Of a stretch of DNA of 38,226 nucleotides, positions 20,143 to 38,226 are shown in pieces. The position numbers and the translations under genes were made by a program. How positions within the stretch are numbered: the first letter of the stretch is position 1; each line of letters begins with the position of its first letter. Source of the stretch: a virus; the IMG/VR virus record IMGVR_UViG_3300049489_000384, positions 1 through 38,226 of that record, one strand, 5' to 3'. The notes beneath the pieces were generated by a model that was not told where the DNA came from, ran no database searches, and saw only the letters and a list, made by a program, of their open reading frames with translations.

Positions 20143-22701
20143 TTAGTATCCAGTGACTTTATTTGAGGGAAGGTACTTATCCATCTGTTGCATTTCGTTG
20201 TAGGTGTGGAATCTCTCCCAACCCATATAGCAAATCATGGCTGCCATAACACGGTCATCATGGCAACCACGCTCGGCGTTCGAGAAGCCGTCCTCGCCGA
20301 TGACATAAGTCATTAATTCCTCCACAAGCTCCTTGGAGGGGAGAACGGCTGTACGTTCTCTAAGTACCTTGCCGAACTTTGAAATCATAAGGGGTTTTGA
20401 TTTCGAGTCCGTCCACCAGCCCAGCTTCTTTGTGCGAATGTCCGAGCGTTGGTCTACCTGGTACTTATAGTAGAGCCGAGAATATAATTTTTTGATCTCA
20501 TTGAGGGTAGCGATACCGAAAGAATTTGCCTCAACTGCAATCCAGGCGTTATTGTAATAACGTCCCAAATCAATGAGTTTTTTACCTAGGGTATCGGGGG
20601 GAATTTGTCCGTGAAGTTCTGCAACCTGGGTAAGATTTTGATCGAAGACTACTGCACACGATGGGTCACCACCACTTCCTAGACCAACGTCTGAACCGAT
20701 AAAGTATCGTGTACCCGGGTGGGGTTCGTCCCAAACGTACAGAGTGCCTCTCTCATCTTTTACTATAACACCCTTGTCAAGATATCCTCGTTTTTTATAC
20801 TCTTTACAGTTATCTAAGTAGTATTGAACAGAATCGGCATCGAACACCATAGACCCTGAAAGCAGTTTAAATTCTCCGTTAATACGAATGTCATACTCAG
20901 CTCCGTGGTACTTCCGCATCTGTTCTTCTTTTTGGACTTTGGACAGATATGGGTTGTGTTTAATCCCTGCGCCCGAACACCAGATTCTTTTACCGTCTTG
21001 TCTGCGATATAGCTCTTTGTAGGCCCAGGTCATACCAACTCTTCGGCCTGTGTTATCCTCGAATATTGGGGTCATGGTGAGCCAGATATCCAGGTCTTTT
21101 CCTGCGGCGATACGAGCCATACACTCAGACCAGATTTCTCTTGGGGGTTCTTCATCAAACCAAATCCACCTCTTTGCGGCTCCAGCAAAACGAGTCACAC
21201 CTGAATCACAGTTTGAAACAATCAATCCGTCAGCTAAAAATCTATGGTATTTTTCGACTGTTATATCAAACACCTCTTCTTCCCCATCATCAACAATAGA
21301 AACTATTTTACAGTACCTATTGGAACATCTTTTATGCTTCTTATTTGTTGGAATATAGTTTGATAAATATGATGATGCTGACTCTGAAGCTATCGCTTTG
21401 CCAGGAACACGCACCTGAGATAGAAATTTTTGTCTAGCTTCTTTCTGCTTCAAACACACCCTATATGATTCCCTATATTTTCCTCCGGGTATAGTCTGCA
21501 TACAGACCCTTATCCCAAGTCGCTGTAATAGAAGTTTAACGTCTTGAGCTAAACGGTATGATGTGGTTGAATAACTAATCTGACTATCACTAATGCAACC
21601 ATCAGTTGCAAATAGGAACCCAAGAAATAAACGAATATCTAAATCTGTTTGTTGGAACACCTCATCTGGTATGAATTTCTCGTAACTATATTTACCCCAT
21701 AAGCCATAACCACGAAGTAGCTGAATGAGGGGGTTGTTATTCGGTCCGACACCACGCTTGCAAGTGATTTCGTAATCTTTTTTATGTTTTGATCTCAGTC
21801 TAGCTTTTAATCCTTTTGGAAGAAGTAATTTTGCCTCTTGAATCAATAAATCATTTTCGCATGACAAAATAGCGCTCTTACTTGTTAGACACCCATCTCC
21901 GATTAATAATGCTACCCATGCCAGCTTCCAATTTTCAAGAGTCTTACTCCCTGTAATTGAAAATTCTGGGGCAATCAACCTATCGCCAATTTTTAAATCC
22001 TTCGCTTGCCTCCAACCAGATGTAGTCATTATTTTATGGTCTTTAGTTACACGAATTGAGTGACCCCGCTTAGTCGTAATTTTTAATATCGGTTTAACTC
22101 CATTCGACCATACATCAAGCACTTTAGATACTTTTGACCTGTGCCAGCAATCAGTAGAAATTACAGAGTGTCCAATTTTTATATCTGCTATTGGTCTTGA
22201 TATGCCATCTGCACACTGAACTCTTTGTGATGCCGCTAAACAGCTTTTGAATCCGATTTTAGACCCATTTGTTAATTCGATAATGTCTATGATTCCTGCT
22301 TTAACGTGCCATATTTTTTTGATCGCAGATTTTGGTAGGAGTTCTAAAACAATCTTTTGTGCGGCTTCACGCTGTACGTTGTAGTCTTTAGAAACTATCC
22401 AACCCTCGTTTGGGGTTTGGACATCTTTGTATGGGTGGATTCCGCAAGCGTAGTAGACGGCCTCTGCTGCTCCTGCGTGAGTTTTGCCGACACGATTTCC
22501 CCAATGTAGCAATCGGTAAGCACATTGGTTTCGATGGAACTCTTCCTGTTTTGAATGGGGGTCGTAAAAGAATATTCCGTTATCCTTGGCCCATACAGTG
22601 TCGAACCACTCAACGCTTTGATGTTCTTTTTTAGTGAGTCCATGCTTCGCCTCGAACTGCTCTTCGGTTAATATTTGTATATCACGCTCGAAATCATCCA
22701 T
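20143..22701 (-). CDS. Terminase large subunit, interrupted by an intein
   Basis: 852 residues encoded; removing the 344-residue intein leaves about 508, normal for this ATPase-nuclease. Walker A is at 67-74 (WGNRVGKT). The Walker B/catalytic Glu region is IWFDEEPP at 513-520. A C-terminal RNase H-like nuclease carries FIGSDVGLGSGGDPS, a VEANSFG strand and the CHDDRV acidic pair near the end. The intein splits FKS from CDSGVTRFAG just before Walker B, so the protein is inactive until spliced. The start overlaps the upstream gene by eight bases. It cuts concatemers and pumps DNA into the procapsid through the portal. Confidence 0.92.
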   Translation of the reverse strand: MDDFERDIQILTEEQFEAKHGLTKKEHQSVEWFDTVWAKDNGIFFYDPHSKQEEFHRNQCAYRLLHWGNRVGKTHAGAAEAVYYACGIHPYKDVQTPNEGWIVSKDYNVQREAAQKIVLELLPKSAIKKIWHVKAGIIDIIELTNGSKIGFKSCLAASQRVQCADGISRPIADIKIGHSVISTDCWHRSKVSKVLDVWSNGVKPILKITTKRGHSIRVTKDHKIMTTSGWRQAKDLKIGDRLIAPEFSITGSKTLENWKLAWVALLIGDGCLTSKSAILSCENDLLIQEAKLLLPKGLKARLRSKHKKDYEITCKRGVGPNNNPLIQLLRGYGLWGKYSYEKFIPDEVFQQTDLDIRLFLGFLFATDGCISDSQISYSTTSYRLAQDVKLLLQRLGIRVCMQTIPGGKYRESYRVCLKQKEARQKFLSQVRVPGKAIASESASSYLSNYIPTNKKHKRCSNRYCKIVSIVDDGEEEVFDITVEKYHRFLADGLIVSNCDSGVTRFAGAAKRWIWFDEEPPREIWSECMARIAAGKDLDIWLTMTPIFEDNTGRRVGMTWAYKELYRRQDGKRIWCSGAGIKHNPYLSKVQKEEQMRKYHGAEYDIRINGEFKLLSGSMVFDADSVQYYLDNCKEYKKRGYLDKGVIVKDERGTLYVWDEPHPGTRYFIGSDVGLGSGGDPSCAVVFDQNLTQVAELHGQIPPDTLGKKLIDLGRYYNNAWIAVEANSFGIATLNEIKKLYSRLYYKYQVDQRSDIRTKKLGWWTDSKSKPLMISKFGKVLRERTAVLPSKELVEELMTYVIGEDGFSNAERGCHDDRVMAAMICYMGWERFHTYNEMQQMDKYLPSNKVTGY
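21211..22242 (-). mobile_element. Intein with LAGLIDADG homing endonuclease in terminase
   Basis: Residues 154-497 of the terminase ORF. Block A starts with Cys154 (CLAASQRVQCADG). Block B has the T/H region RVTKDHKIM near 217-225. Two LAGLIDADG helices are LLIGDGCL (about 265-272) and LGFLFATDGCI (about 360-370). Block F is VFDITVEKYHRFLADG, and the C-terminal junction is Ser-Asn before Cys498. The splicing residues Cys1, terminal Asn and +1 Cys are present. The penultimate residue is Ser where His is usual, known in some active inteins. The AT-rich DNA contrasts with the surrounding terminase, as expected for a mobile element. Confidence 0.92.
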
Positions 22702-26520: not shown

Positions 26521-26748
26521 CTAGCGTTTTAAACGGTATGGGCTATACGGGTATAAGGCACAACCCACGGAATCACACTCATCAGATTCACCCATCCCAT
26601 TGCAATCATAGCACTTAGCTCTAATTGCCTGACTTCTAATGAGTTTTTTACCATTTAAATGCTTCAAAAGGTCTGTTTTGCCGACTCTAGATGTGCCAGA
26701 TTTAGCGGATTCTAGTAACTCATTTAATGGCTCAGTTATGGCGCTCAT
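26521..26748 (-). CDS. Small zinc-binding phage protein (IRAKCYDC family)
   Basis: 75 residues; the second half reads AIRAKCYDCNGMGES, DSVGC and ALYPYSPYRLKR. The pattern AIRAKC-x2-C ... C-x-LYPY-x-PY is a recurrent small family in phage and prophage genomes, usually of unknown function and often near terminase or integrase genes. GGAGG precedes the ATG, which overlaps the HNH gene stop by one base. The four cysteines probably bind zinc. Confidence 0.75.
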   Translation of the reverse strand: MSAITEPLNELLESAKSGTSRVGKTDLLKHLNGKKLIRSQAIRAKCYDCNGMGESDECDSVGCALYPYSPYRLKR

Positions 26749-27527
26749 TAGAATAACCTCCTATTAATTGATTTAAGGATTGCTAGTACGCACTCTTTAG
26801 TTTGGGACTCAGACTTCTTACTGAAACCGATTGTCCCGTGGTAGGCGGTGTGACAGTTCGCACACAAAACCATCAAATTATCTATGGAGTCGCTTCTGGT
26901 TGCGTTATTAATGTGATGCGTTTGGAGAGATAGAATATTGGAATGGCCACAAGCCTCGCACGACCCAATCCTAGTCTTTATAGACCTTGCACGATCTGAT
27001 GGTTTAGCCTTATTCTTCTTCCTAGAACATACCCGGCTACAATAAACCTGAAAATTTCGCCGAGTATTGAAGTTATTACTACAAAATTGGCATATCTTTA
27101 AATATTCGGGTTTAGTGATCTTTTCCTTTGGTTCTTTTCGTGTACTTTCAACCAGAAACTTACACGGATGACATCTTAATTGTCTGCCGGAGGTTGGCTC
27201 GAAACTAGAGTTACATATAGAACAGACCTTTGAAATAAACAATCTTTCATCAGGTTTGAATTTGCCAGAAACCTTTATTACGCTTCGGCGGCTAATCTTT
27301 GATCTGAACTTGCACCTATACGAACAATATACCTTTGATATGTTAATAGACTCAAACTCTATATTACAAGATGGGCACGTTTTAATAGTAATTCTGGAGG
27401 GGGTGGGGTAGATATTAATAATAGGTTCGCTTGCAGACTCCCCCCAGGCTTCGGCTAGGCTAGGCTCACTAGCTATGCGCCCTAGCTTGCTGATCTCTGG
27501 CTTGTTCGCTGAGTTTTGAGCTATCAT
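26748..27527 (-). CDS. HNH endonuclease with repeated zinc-finger modules
   Basis: 259 residues. Three C-x2-C-x(n)-[YR]C-x2/3-C modules precede the nuclease: CPSCNIEF with YCSYRC, CSICNSSF with RCHPC, CQFCSNNF with YCSRVC. The C-terminal HNH domain is CEACGHSNILSLQTHHINN with LMVLCANCHTAYHG. It lies immediately downstream of the small terminase, a frequent position for packaging-associated or homing HNH proteins. The DNA is AT-richer than its neighbours, and the finger architecture resembles the frameshifted gene at 34601, which suggests a mobile homing gene. Confidence 0.82.
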   Translation of the reverse strand: MIAQNSANKPEISKLGRIASEPSLAEAWGESASEPIINIYPTPSRITIKTCPSCNIEFESINISKVYCSYRCKFRSKISRRSVIKVSGKFKPDERLFISKVCSICNSSFEPTSGRQLRCHPCKFLVESTRKEPKEKITKPEYLKICQFCSNNFNTRRNFQVYCSRVCSRKKNKAKPSDRARSIKTRIGSCEACGHSNILSLQTHHINNATRSDSIDNLMVLCANCHTAYHGTIGFSKKSESQTKECVLAILKSINRRLF

Positions 27528-32650: not shown

Positions 32651-32841
32651 GGTTGGTGAGCGTCACGAACCAGACAGCAGTAAGCTGAAAAAATTCTAAT
32701 TGAATAGCACCCAGAGCTTCACGGGCATAAATTTGAAGCCACAGCGATATGAGCCTACCACCGCCGTAGGCAGTTGGGGTCACTATGAGATTAGATACAT
32801 ATAAATCTAAATGAGAGCATTGGATATATGCCCGAATGGGC
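32651..32841 (+). ncRNA. Hairpin-rich structured RNA candidate upstream of an HNH gene
   Basis: Between two genes I find a chain of short perfect stems: GGTT/AACC around GTGA/TCAC (32651-32671), CAGC/GCTG (32675-32687), ATTC/GAAT (32693-32705), GCTTCA/TGAAGC (32716-32739), GCCTAC/GTAGGC (32753-32771), TTAGAT/ATCTAA (32791-32810) and GCCC/GGGC (32830-32841). Coding potential is absent for about 190 bp in an otherwise packed genome. Position and structure recall HEARO, the HNH endonuclease-associated RNA of IscB systems (omegaRNA), but the downstream HNH protein lacks RuvC. The family assignment is unverified. Confidence 0.6.
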
Positions 32842-32857
32842 GGGGTGTGGAGAAGAA

Positions 32858-33229
32858 ATGAAGATAAAGTGGCGAATAGAACCTGAATTGTTTGGTTTGA
32901 GAAAGAAAATTCTAAAAGAAGCTGGTCATAAGTGCCATTACTGCGGTGGAAAGGCGTGGCAGTTAGATCATATCACCCCGGTTTATCTAGGTGGAACCCA
33001 TGATGAGGAAAACCTAGTCTCTTGCTGCGGGAGGTGCAATCACTTAAAGGGGATAATGGCCTACTCAGACTTTAAGCATTTAAGGTTATGGGAAGGGGAT
33101 TTTAAAGCAATAAAAAAACAAAGGCGTGTTCTGCTTAAAAAAGCGGGTGAGCAAACACCTGCTACAAATACGATGTGCGGGCATGGGGCAGTAAGGCGGT
33201 GGTGTTGCAAGTGCAGGTATTCTAAATGA
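32858..33229 (+). CDS. HNH endonuclease
   Basis: 123 residues from the ATG preceded by GGAGAAGAA. The HNH core is GHKCHYCGGKAWQLDHITPVYLGG, in pieces, with DEENLVSCCGRCNHLKG. The second histidine of the catalytic set lies in LDHI and the Asn in EEN. The C-terminus adds a further Cys/His group (MCGHGAVRRWCCKCRYSK), a second metal site. There is no RuvC or bridge helix. It is separated from its upstream gene by the structured RNA candidate and overlaps the next gene by ATGA. Either a homing endonuclease or a packaging-type nicking enzyme. Confidence 0.85.
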   Translation: MKIKWRIEPELFGLRKKILKEAGHKCHYCGGKAWQLDHITPVYLGGTHDEENLVSCCGRCNHLKGIMAYSDFKHLRLWEGDFKAIKKQRRVLLKKAGEQTPATNTMCGHGAVRRWCCKCRYSK

Positions 33230-34604: not shown

Positions 34605-35270
34605 ATTATATTCGTGAAATTGCTAAACATAATAAAAAATGTCGTTTGTGTGGAAAAGATTTTTTATCCATTAGGGTTAATAAAATGTTTTGTTCAAAAT
34701 TGTGTATTAGTAGGAACTTTAACCCCCCCAAAGGGAAAGCATACAACTGGTTATTATTTACCATGCCAAAATTGTCAAAAACAGGTTTGGACTACCCCAT
34801 TCAGAAAACAATACAAAAAACGATTTTGTTCTAATCATTGTAGGATGGATTTTCAGAAGAAAAATTCATTTAAATTTGAGTGTGCTGTTTGTGGAAAATT
34901 TGTATTCACTCAACCAGCACAAATAAAACTTAGATCACGAAAAACATGCTCAATCGAGTGTAGAAGTAAGTTTTCTAGGTTAATGGCAAATAAAAGAAGG
35001 GTTGAGCTTGGTTATACGAAGCATCAAATAGATAGGCTTCAAAGGTATTCAGTTGAGGCTGGCAAATGGAGAGATTCCGTTTTTAAGCGTGATAATTACA
35101 CTTGTCAAATTTGCTGTGTTCGGGGTTCCTACCTAGAAGCAGATCATATTAAACCGTGGGCATATTTTCCAGAACTAAGATTTGAAATATCAAATGGAAG
35201 AACCTTGTGTAGGAAGTGCCACGATAAAACAAAAATATCTTACAAAAAAATGAGAGAGATTTATACATAA
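34601..35270 (+). pseudogene. Zinc-finger HNH endonuclease with a frameshift
   Basis: The N-terminal frame (TTG start with GGAG upstream) encodes CRLCGKDFLSIRVNKMFCSKLC, then reaches a run of six C (34724-34729 region) where homology continues one frame over: TGYYLPCQNCQKQ, KRFCSNHCR, CAVCGKFVF, CSIECRSKF, and the HNH core YTCQICCVRGSYLEADHIKPW with TLCRKCHDK. Four C-x2-C fingers precede HNH, as in the gene at 26748. A one-base change in the C-run restores one frame of about 220 residues. AT-rich like other homing genes. Either recent decay or a sequencing error. Confidence 0.8.
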
Positions 35271-36570: not shown

Positions 36571-36942
36571 ATGGAAATAAACGATAACACAGTCACAATA
36601 AACGGAGTCGAGTATGTAGAGAAGTCCTCTATGAAGGATTTGGCTCCGCAGGTCAATGGAATGAAATACGTTATTGTTCGTACTTATTCAGCAGGGGTAT
36701 TTGCTGGATATTTGGAGAGCAGGACGGGTCAAGAGGTTGTGCTTAGAAACGCCAGGCGTATTTGGTACTGGTCTGGCGCGGCATCTTTGTCACAGCTTGC
36801 AGTAGACGGAACAAGCAATCCAAAAGATTGTAAGTTTCCCTGTGAGGTATCTAGGGTTGAATTACTCAATGCCATTGAAATATTGGATGTAACATCTAAA
36901 GCTGAAAAATCCATTAAATCGGTGAAAGTATGGGAACAGTAA
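36571..36942 (+). CDS. DUF6948-like phage protein
   Basis: 123 residues. KYVIVRTYSAGVFAGYLESR, VLRNARRIWYWSGAASLSQLA and NPKDCKFPCEVSRVELLNAIEI, in pieces, match a widespread phage family I know as DUF6948 (number from memory). Function unknown. AAGGAG precedes the ATG. In other phages it is often next to a Gly-Tyr-Ser-Asp repeat ORF, as here. Confidence 0.75.
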   Translation: MEINDNTVTINGVEYVEKSSMKDLAPQVNGMKYVIVRTYSAGVFAGYLESRTGQEVVLRNARRIWYWSGAASLSQLAVDGTSNPKDCKFPCEVSRVELLNAIEILDVTSKAEKSIKSVKVWEQ

Positions 36943-37196
36943 TAGACTCCGGCTACGGCTCCGGCTACGGCTACGGCTCCGGCTCCGGCTCCGGCTACGG
37001 CTACGGCTCCGGCTACGGCTCCGGCTACGGCGACGGCTCCGGCTACGGCGACGGCTCCGGCTACGGCTCCGGCTCCGGCTCCGGCTCCGGCTACGGCTAC
37101 GGCTCCGGCTCCGGCTCCGGCTACGGCGACGGCTTGGGAATGTCCGAAGTGTGGCGGTGTGATGAGTCCATTCCATCCGACTTGTTGGTTTTGTAA
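36930..37196 (+). CDS. Gly-Tyr-Ser-Asp low-complexity repeat protein
   Basis: 88 residues. After MGTVID, 31 X-Gly dipeptides with X = Ser, Tyr or Asp (SGYGSGYGYGSG and so on) fill residues 7-68, then a short tail that reads like out-of-frame sequence (LGMSEVWRCDESI). The start overlaps the upstream gene by 13 bp. Such GYGSGDG proteins recur in phage genomes after the same upstream family. The alternative forward frame continues into a zinc ribbon, and the reverse frame gives an Arg-Ser repeat that I reject. Confidence 0.5.
   Translation: MGTVIDSGYGSGYGYGSGSGSGYGYGSGYGSGYGDGSGYGDGSGYGSGSGSGSGYGYGSGSGSGYGDGLGMSEVWRCDESIPSDLLVL
36948..37133. repeat. Hexanucleotide tandem repeat, 31 units
   Basis: 186 bp of units TCCGGC, TACGGC and GACGGC. 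Period six keeps the frame whatever the copy number, so length variants would change only repeat length. GC content jumps well above the surroundings. Slippage-prone; copy number in this assembly may be wrong. Confidence 0.95.
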
Positions 37197-37311
37197 GCCA
37201 GTAGTTAATGGACAACCTTTAATTTGCGTATGTCACATAAACAACGCATGTCCTATTCATGGAGCAAGTAGTAGTCCTGAAAACCCACACAAATACGGAC
37301 AGGGGTCTTGA
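37135..37311 (+). pseudogene. Orphan zinc-ribbon reading frame after the repeat
   Basis: The frame reads WECPKCGGVMSPFHPTCWFC, then CVCHINNACPIHG, to a stop at 37309-37311: two C-x2-C pairs and a C-x-C-H ... C-x2-H group, clearly zinc-ribbon-like. It has no usable start codon upstream, because its frame within the repeat is Thr-Ala-Pro-Ala and a stop precedes it. It could be the 3' part of the repeat gene after a one-base shift, or a gene whose start was displaced by repeat growth. Confidence 0.6.
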
Positions 37312-37325
37312 ATTGGAGTAAGGCT

Positions 37326-37493
37326 ATGAACTCTACGAAAGAGAAGTTGATTGAAGAATTTGATGCCTTGCTTCAGGAGTTTATTGACATCCGTCTTTAC
37401 GCTAGTCAATGGGAACATAAATACGGTGAGGATTGGGACGCTGTTGAACTTAGAGCAAAGACGTTTCTTGACCGTCTGAAGGAGATGGAGTGA
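37326..37493 (+). CDS. Small helical protein (55 aa)
   Basis: Start at 37326 has GGAG seven bases upstream. The sequence NSTKEKLIEEFDALLQEFIDIR, in pieces, and WDAVELRAKTFLDRLKEME is entirely helical and acidic. The stop is followed immediately by the ATG of the long frame overlapping the methyltransferase. No family recognised. Confidence 0.65.
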   Translation: MNSTKEKLIEEFDALLQEFIDIRLYASQWEHKYGEDWDAVELRAKTFLDRLKEME

Positions 37494-38226
37494 ATGTGGG
37501 TGCTAAACAGCCAGACAAGATCTCCGAATCGTCCAAGTCTCAAGTATTCGTCAGGGGGTTCCGGACCTCTTTGGAAGTGGAACGAAGCATTTTGTTTACC
37601 GACTAATGGGGGGGGCGGACAGTATATATGCGTTACTTCAGTATGTTCTCAGGAATTGGCGGATTTGAAGAAGGTATCAGGAGGGTTGATGAAAAAGCAG
37701 AGTGTATCGGATTCAGCGAGATCGACAAATACGCCATCCAAGTCTACCAAAGGCACTTCCCAAACCACAAAAACTACGGAGACGCAACCAGAATTGTTCC
37801 AGAAGAACTCCAAGACTTCGACCTCCTCGTTGGAGGATTCCCCTGTCAGGCGTTTAGTATCGCAGGTAAAAGACGTGGATTTGAGGATACGAGAGGGACA
37901 CTATTTTTTGATATTGCTAGGATTCTCAAAGTCAAAAGACCCAGAATGTTCCTTTTGGAAAATGTCAAAGGACTGTTATCTCATGACAATGGACGAACTT
38001 TCAAAACCATCATCACCACGCTTGCAGAGTTGGGGTATGGTGTCGAATGGCAAGTGCTTAACTCAAAGAATTTCGGCGTCCCGCAAAACAGAGAACGGGT
38101 GTTCATTGTTGGACATCTTGGAAACGAATGTAGAGGACAAATATTTCCTATCGGAGAAGTCAGTCCAAAAAATATTGAGCAACTGCAAGGCGGAAGTCAA
38201 AGCTACAGAGTCTATGACCCAAACGG
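37494..38226 (+). CDS. Long ORF overlapping the methyltransferase in another frame
   Basis: An ATG directly after the previous stop, with AAGGAG and GGAG upstream, opens a frame that stays open to the right end and, across the circular join, to a TGA at 12-14: 245 codons. Its first 44 codons precede the methyltransferase start (SGGSGPLWKWNEAFCLP, GGGGQYICVTS). The remaining 200 are encoded one frame over the methyltransferase. The product is Ser/Thr/Lys-rich and ends with SLLDILETNVEDKYFLSEK. Frames like this recur over phage cytosine methyltransferases in my recollection, so it may be a true overprinted gene or a codon-usage artefact. Confidence 0.4.
   Translation, partial: MWVLNSQTRSPNRPSLKYSSGGSGPLWKWNEAFCLPTNGGGGQYICVTSVCSQELADLKKVSGGLMKKQSVSDSARSTNTPSKSTKGTSQTTKTTETQPELFQKNSKTSTSSLEDSPVRRLVSQVKDVDLRIREGHYFLILLGFSKSKDPECSFWKMSKDCYLMTMDELSKPSSPRLQSWGMVSNGKCLTQRISASRKTENGCSLLDILETNVEDKYFLSEKSVQKILSNCKAEVKATESMTQT
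37608..37615. repeat. Poly-G tract upstream of the methyltransferase start
   Basis: Eight G lie 12 bases before the methyltransferase ATG, where a length change would alter the distance to any ribosome-binding purine stretch and also shift the overlapping upstream frame. Confidence 0.7.
37628..38226 (+). CDS. C5 cytosine DNA methyltransferase, N-terminal part
   Basis: MRYFSMFSGIGGFEEGI is motif I (SAM binding), GGFPCQAFSIAGKRRGFED carries the catalytic PCQ of motif IV, LENVKGLL is the ENV of motif VI and NFGVPQNRERVFIVG is the QNRER of motif VIII. The frame runs through the right end into position 1-36 (target-recognition DPNGLSSTI) and the C-terminal motifs IX and X at 1-435. The intact enzyme would methylate C5 of cytosine and could protect phage DNA from restriction. 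The predicted ATG follows a G8 tract. It overlaps a long alternative frame throughout. Confidence 0.92.
   Translation, partial: MRYFSMFSGIGGFEEGIRRVDEKAECIGFSEIDKYAIQVYQRHFPNHKNYGDATRIVPEELQDFDLLVGGFPCQAFSIAGKRRGFEDTRGTLFFDIARILKVKRPRMFLLENVKGLLSHDNGRTFKTIITTLAELGYGVEWQVLNSKNFGVPQNRERVFIVGHLGNECRGQIFPIGEVSPKNIEQLQGGSQSYRVYDPN
38218..38226. repeat. Terminal 9-bp redundancy (right copy)
   Basis: Right-hand copy of cccaaacgg. Together with the continuous methyltransferase it indicates that the sequence was linearised inside that gene. Confidence 0.75.

Follow-up and report, generated by a model that had tools for sequence, protein, structure and literature searches.

A C5-cytosine DNA methyltransferase gene at the 3′ edge of a viral DNA record carries the signature of a second protein in its +1 reading frame, and we are nearly certain that, at the level of sequence, the gene is dual-coding. 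The stretch analyzed (here called the window) is the whole 38,226-base record, which includes a terminase and an SU10-like portal; its 3′ edge falls inside the methyltransferase gene, so that the gene is cut off and both the end of the methyltransferase and the stop of the +1 frame lie beyond position 38226. The frame-0 methyltransferase starts at ATG 37628 on the + strand and runs to the edge (37628..38226; PF00145 E=1.8e-70; TIGR00675 E=2.8e-77), with motifs I, IV (PCQ), VI (ENV), and VIII (QNRER) meeting the criteria for a DNA_methylase domain. An initial annotation of this DNA had described an overprinting candidate that begins directly after the preceding stop, is shifted +1 to the methyltransferase, and stays open to the edge. 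This description was confirmed. The maximal +1 open frame in the ORF list (37494..>38226, + strand, 244 codons) begins immediately 3′ of TGA 37491-37493, the stop of a 61-aa upstream ORF without a family match (37308..37493, + strand), spans 44 codons 5′ of the methyltransferase start, and continues over the methyltransferase for the claimed length of about 200 codons without a stop.

Several other features of the window were observed. The gene for the terminase large subunit (20143-22701, - strand) contains an intein that bears a LAGLIDADG-type domain (PF14890 E=1.8e-19; PF14528 E=1.3e-14), and three HNH endonuclease-like genes are present (26748-27527, - strand; 32828-33229 and 34614-35270, + strand). 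A low-complexity GGCTCCGGCTACG-type repeat (36945-37140, + strand) encodes an (SGYG/SGDG)n peptide within an 88-aa ORF (36930-37196), with an RS-rich frame on the - strand, and adjoins a DUF6948 gene (36571-36942).

Taken alone, the open +1 frame of the window is unusual but not extreme. Under synonymous shuffling the probability of finding no +1 stop in methyltransferase codons 1-198 is 0.004, and that of an open +1 frame over the 44 upstream codons is 0.076. The decisive evidence for a putative +1 gene is not this single-gene chance but a comparative stop test. Relatives were collected from IMG/VR (80 by methyltransferase protein and four by +1 protein) and supplemented with named phage loci, and synonymous codons were shuffled within each gene, a null model that preserves both methyltransferase sequence and codon usage. 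Across 87 relatives, only 4 +1 stops were observed between methyltransferase codon 51 and RER+18, where 483 were expected. Counts elsewhere were 181 versus 174 expected in the +1 frame of codons 2-45, before this core, 737 versus 567 in the +1 frame after RER+70, and 892 versus 889 in the +2 frame of the core itself. The stop-free zone extends from approximately methyltransferase codon 51 to just beyond motif VIII, and all four core stops are confined to two loci (L065 and L037). Stops in homologues had been named in advance as grounds for refutation, and with none in the core of 85/87 relatives the claim stands. Because the relatives are not independent, the shuffle counts cannot be read as probabilities; the guards against a shared artefact are the control regions and frames and a second methyltransferase family. 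In that independent set of proteobacterial-type methyltransferases (n=26 non-redundant), which was gathered with a quite different +1 sequence, +1 stops numbered 0 versus 57 near motif VIII (codons -60..+39) and were normal elsewhere.

The predicted +1 product also appears to be conserved as a protein. A profile (HMM) of this product, built from loci L010-L089, scored distant relatives 50-90 bits above their own synonymous shuffles (Z 5.4-8.9). The window product scored 193.8 versus 119.9 when shuffled (Z 7.3). Conservation of amino acids is strongest in the last ~60 residues, while the N-terminal half shows little and is mostly just open. Two conserved stretches can be delimited in the window, both on the + strand: a segment ending ...SWGMVSNGKCLTQRISASRKTENGC (38001..38102), which scores 61 versus 35 in shuffles (Z 3.8 here, approximately 4.5 in the most distant relatives), and the tail that follows it, SLLDILETNVEDKYFLSEKSVQKILSN (38103..38183), which alone scores 52.0 versus 2.8 and is homologous to a segment that other C5 methyltransferases read in frame after motif VIII. 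Two methyltransferases with such an in-frame tail reached only Z 0.2-0.3 with the +1 profile. Codon variability agrees with these scores: entropy at methyltransferase codon positions 1/2/3 is 0.87/0.71/1.51 in the N-terminal region and 1.09/0.69/0.67 in the tail, an inversion of the pattern that places methyltransferase third positions in the tail among the least variable. Conserved residues there use one fixed codon (H163 as CAT in 59/59, L164 as CTT in 65/65, F173 as TTT in 69/69, and P174 as CCT in 77/77), and the proteobacterial set leans the same way (0.92/0.47/0.54). Variability falls mainly on the third position of +1 codons, as for a protein-coding frame. A substitution pattern explicable by the methyltransferase frame alone would have been a second ground for refutation; that frame cannot account for the pattern seen, and the claim again stands.

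These data bear on the simplest alternative, that there is no second protein and the open frame is either the relic of an old frameshift or the product of a constraint on DNA, RNA, or codon usage. The homology of the tail to an in-frame segment does imply that the frame changed at some time. A relic would decay, however, which is not reconcilable with the near absence of core stops while the +2 frame and the flanks remain normal, and variability at the +1 third position is what a protein would leave under either version. We regard this explanation as largely refuted and very improbable.

Where translation of the +1 gene would begin is less clear. Of the proteobacterial sequences, 63/68 have a +1 ATG at -79 from motif VIII, and stops pile up just 5′ of it. 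In the window's group, when any +1 start is allowed, the best start has a mean best ribosome-site energy of -7.34 versus -3.82 in shuffles (p=4e-15). The common ATG at codon 50 taken alone is not tied to ribosome sites in this group (p=0.92), so the exact start is variable or uncertain there. The best candidate in the window is ATG 37689, preceded by a Shine-Dalgarno-like site at 37679..37684 (+ strand; AGGAGG-gttg-ATG), of the kind found to be stronger at +1 starts of relatives than in shuffles. From the sequence, the conserved gene probably starts inside the methyltransferase gene, here at this ATG, and its likeliest coding part in the window is 37689..38226 (+ strand; MKKQSVSDSARST...), in keeping with relatives whose +1 frame is stop-free from about methyltransferase codon 51. 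The initial annotation had given the frame a ribosome site of its own and 44 codons not shared with the methyltransferase. A gaAGGAG does precede 37494, and a start at ATG 37494 with that site cannot be excluded, but the stronger AGGAGG precedes the internal ATG. The 44 codons are indeed within the open frame; because the best start candidate is internal, their membership in the gene is not established. The +1 codons at 37545-37627 read SSGGSGPL...LPTNGGGGQYI, similar pieces occur in the +1 frame upstream of the methyltransferases of L035, L055, and L066, and this upstream stretch is perhaps a displaced methyltransferase fragment. The criteria for an overlapping gene (stop depletion beyond chance, amino-acid conservation beyond that owed to the methyltransferase, and an own start) are met, and the overprinting idea is supported, but solely by inference from nucleotide data: translation has not been shown, and ribosome profiling, peptide, and activity data are lacking.

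The tail offers an indication of function. That the end of the +1 frame resembles an in-frame segment of another group of C5 methyltransferases, hinting at a frame relation between the two, had been noted from the letters alone; a profile search and the match in Javan172 bore out the likeness, and the relation is real. The tail SLLDILETNVEDKYFLSEK resembles a segment that these enzymes read in frame just after motif VIII (...RERVFCVSILGEHSPYVFPGKQELTIRLKDILEDDVDEKYYLSEEK... in Javan172), and a tail profile searched against 10,249 ORFs picked up in-frame segments of this kind at E-values as low as 1.6e-10. In 40 non-redundant control methyltransferases that read the tail in frame, +1 stops are not depleted (294 versus 315 expected). 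Among scored loci the tail lies in +1 in at least 269 and in frame in about 61, where L002 and L115, which score as in-frame, are read as indel-broken methyltransferase genes; no scored locus has both. The ratio carries no meaning because each set was collected by querying with one of the two kinds, but the absence of double-tail loci is independent of query choice. The only members of the window's group without a +1 tail are L037 and L065, and these hold a tail in frame (TALSSILEDSVDDKYFLSDE and NITDIIKPTADEKFYYRADK), which indicates a role in the enzyme itself. The likeness could also reflect descent via a frameshift without conserved function.

Structure prediction gives the window's +1 product a disordered N-terminal part, with the tail as the only ordered region (pLDDT about 78-91; ~93 for a proteobacterial product). 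A PDB sequence search with the product gave no credible match, and a fold search with the structure model gave just weak sigma-factor-helix matches (Z 4 or less). Read alongside the cis/trans pattern, the predicted structure points to a small subunit that would provide in trans the segment following motif VIII. We hypothesize that one mRNA would yield both polypeptides, with frame 0 encoding the C5 methyltransferase and the +1 frame encoding a small protein translated from a ribosome site within the gene (in the window, probably AGGAGG with ATG 37689). The N-terminal part of the small protein would be of low complexity and probably disordered, whereas its C-terminal tail, about 45 residues long (...SLLDILETNVEDKYFLSEKSVQKIL...), would be ordered; in other C5 methyltransferases this tail belongs to the enzyme itself, directly after motif VIII and bordering the DNA-recognition domain. 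By docking on the large protein, the small one may provide in trans a segment held in cis elsewhere, as in M.AquI and M.EcoHK31I. The supported parts of this scheme are the dual coding, in the restricted sense given above, selection on start sites, homology of the tail, and the lack of any locus with both versions; translation, binding, and a need for the small protein in activity are inferred. We lean toward this two-polypeptide methyltransferase with a +1 accessory subunit, with modest confidence in the mechanism as a whole.

One difficulty for an accessory subunit is that the frame-0 protein of relatives retains motif IX in 63/84 and motif X in 78/84; it looks complete in most of them and may therefore work alone. 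The +1 product could then be a separate protein with its own job, for instance modulating host or phage methylation or tethering the methyltransferase elsewhere, and its tail a docking mimic only. Such independence would fit two loci in which the +1 frame is intact over a damaged methyltransferase, L289, where the catalytic PCQ has become PRQ and the cysteine is lost, and L150, where a stop interrupts frame 0 within the overlap. It would also fit a QLxLF pentapeptide near the N-terminus of the proteobacterial +1 products (QLDLF-like, of the QL[SD]LF type; 20/67 versus 0.7 in shuffles), which we take to be the sliding-clamp-binding consensus. The clamp-like motif is not general, however; in the window's group it occurs in 6/87 versus 0.6 in shuffles, including the tentative QPELF of the window (37785..37799, + strand). 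Moreover, loci that lose the +1 tail have the tail in their methyltransferase, which argues for a part played within the enzyme. We consider a separate function unlikely, although it remains a real possibility. That the clamp-like motif belongs to a flexible arm linking the methyltransferase to replication forks is a hypothesis. A broader reading, to which we give little credence, is that phage and prophage C5 methyltransferases of many phyla are two-component enzymes with the +1 piece in trans, and that in part of the family the small subunit also bears, on a flexible arm, a motif for binding the sliding clamp. Methylation would then be coupled to the replication fork, in a bacterial parallel to DNMT1 and PCNA.

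A different use of the second frame would be programmed frameshifting near motif VIII to make an alternative methyltransferase isoform ending in the +1 tail. The tail is suitably placed right after motif VIII, the +1 frame of L072 continues into motifs IX-X, and the methyltransferases of mycobacteriophages are split at the same place (PMC4351075). A frameshift at the tail would have no need, however, of a +1 frame that is stop-free for about 100 codons 5′ of it, nor of the selection seen on +1 starts with ribosome sites. We judge frameshifting improbable and retain the accessory subunit as the preferred reading.

The +1 overlap appears to exist in hundreds of related phage and prophage methyltransferases across phyla and to be hardly ever annotated. 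It occurs over methyltransferases in phages of Streptococcus, Lactococcus, Clostridioides, Mycobacterium, Vibrio, Caulobacter, and a methanogen, and in Enterococcus plasmids. In bacterial genomes, 80/80 loci with the +1 match lie over a methyltransferase, from Alpha-, Beta-, and Gammaproteobacteria, Nitrospirota, Myxococcales, Stygiobacter, and Verrucomicrobia-type bins. No stand-alone +1 gene was found among these loci or the 80 viral matches, all of which overlie a methyltransferase, and a class-level search of 274 genomes added one match (L311), likewise over a methyltransferase. Among the best matches in E. coli RefSeq genomes, only methyltransferase genes are annotated beneath the match. 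Neither Pfam nor NCBIfam has a model for the +1 product; in PHROGs it corresponds to phrog_16143, labelled only 'DNA methyltransferase', and the N-terminus of phrog_1008 matches the +1 product while its C-terminus matches motifs IX-X. The suggestion that the protein would be novel holds insofar as it is mostly unannotated, but it is very widespread and not unique to this phage. As a separate observation on these genes, an intein-like insert in L233 splits the methyltransferase exactly at the catalytic PC|Q motif.

The C5 methyltransferases are a textbook family of enzymes, and long same-strand overlapping genes are, to our knowledge, considered uncommon among bacteria and the phages that infect them. 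If the interpretation offered here is correct, the cloning and testing of C5 methyltransferases would be affected, since recoding would destroy the second product, puzzling annotations of 'split' methylases would be explained, and the family would provide a clear-cut natural example of a protein segment that a shift in reading frame carries from cis to trans or back.

A close parallel in principle is M.EcoHK31I, whose small polypeptide is coded in another frame within the gene of the large one. Two-polypeptide C5 methyltransferases are known from M.AquI and M.EcoHK31I, and in the latter motif IX resides in the small polypeptide only (PMC3404938). M.EcoHK31I, like the enzyme proposed here, pairs a large polypeptide with a small one; in vitro it requires both. 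In the window's group, by contrast, the large protein mostly keeps motif IX and the small one has the segment after motif VIII instead. The window ends before motif IX, and because relatives keep this motif in frame 0, the M.EcoHK31I criterion is not met and the similarity is one of principle, not of definition. A plasmid search for an EcoHK31I-like locus gave no enterobacterial candidate. In one locus, L208 of Microcystis phage Mwe-JY08, frame 0 encodes motifs I-VIII and X, while the +1 frame contains a motif-IX-like LNPCWVEELMGFPTGWT, as described for M.EcoHK31I.

A second reading frame within a phage methylase gene is also known from ShiLan, where the out-of-frame element is an HNH element (PMC11855218). 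Such homing elements do exist in phage methylases, but the ShiLan element is a mobile insertion coding for an HNH nuclease outside the catalytic core. The +1 product has no HNH or other Pfam domain, and its frame overlaps the conserved catalytic core and is not an insertion; a homing endonuclease was rejected and is virtually ruled out. The same +1 ORF is annotated in a few streptococcal phages (phrog_16143, MM1 ORF14, and P0094_43), and in the sources searched neither overlap nor selection is recorded. Javan172 and SPBc2 mtbP share the tail (...LKDILEDDVDEKYYLSEEK... after motif VIII) but differ in holding it in cis, and methyltransferases with an in-frame tail lack +1 stop depletion.

In M.AquI and the split methylases of mycobacteriophages (Corndog gp7/gp6 and Peaches gp77/gp76), the break comes after motif VIII. 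For cluster O mycobacteriophages, the authors noticed that both frames have coding potential at the methylase split and left the matter open (PMC4351075). In these systems the second frame encodes the C-terminal part with motifs IX-X, whereas in the window's group the first frame mostly encodes a full enzyme, reaching motif X in most relatives as noted above, and the second terminates soon past the tail. The M.AquI criterion (motifs I-VIII in the large and IX-X in the small polypeptide) is accordingly not met by the group, and L072 alone was seen to fit it. The +1 frame extends as far as motif IX or IX-X in L072, L311, and Peaches gp77/gp76, and L072 and L311 look intermediate between the divided enzymes and the overprinted ones described here.
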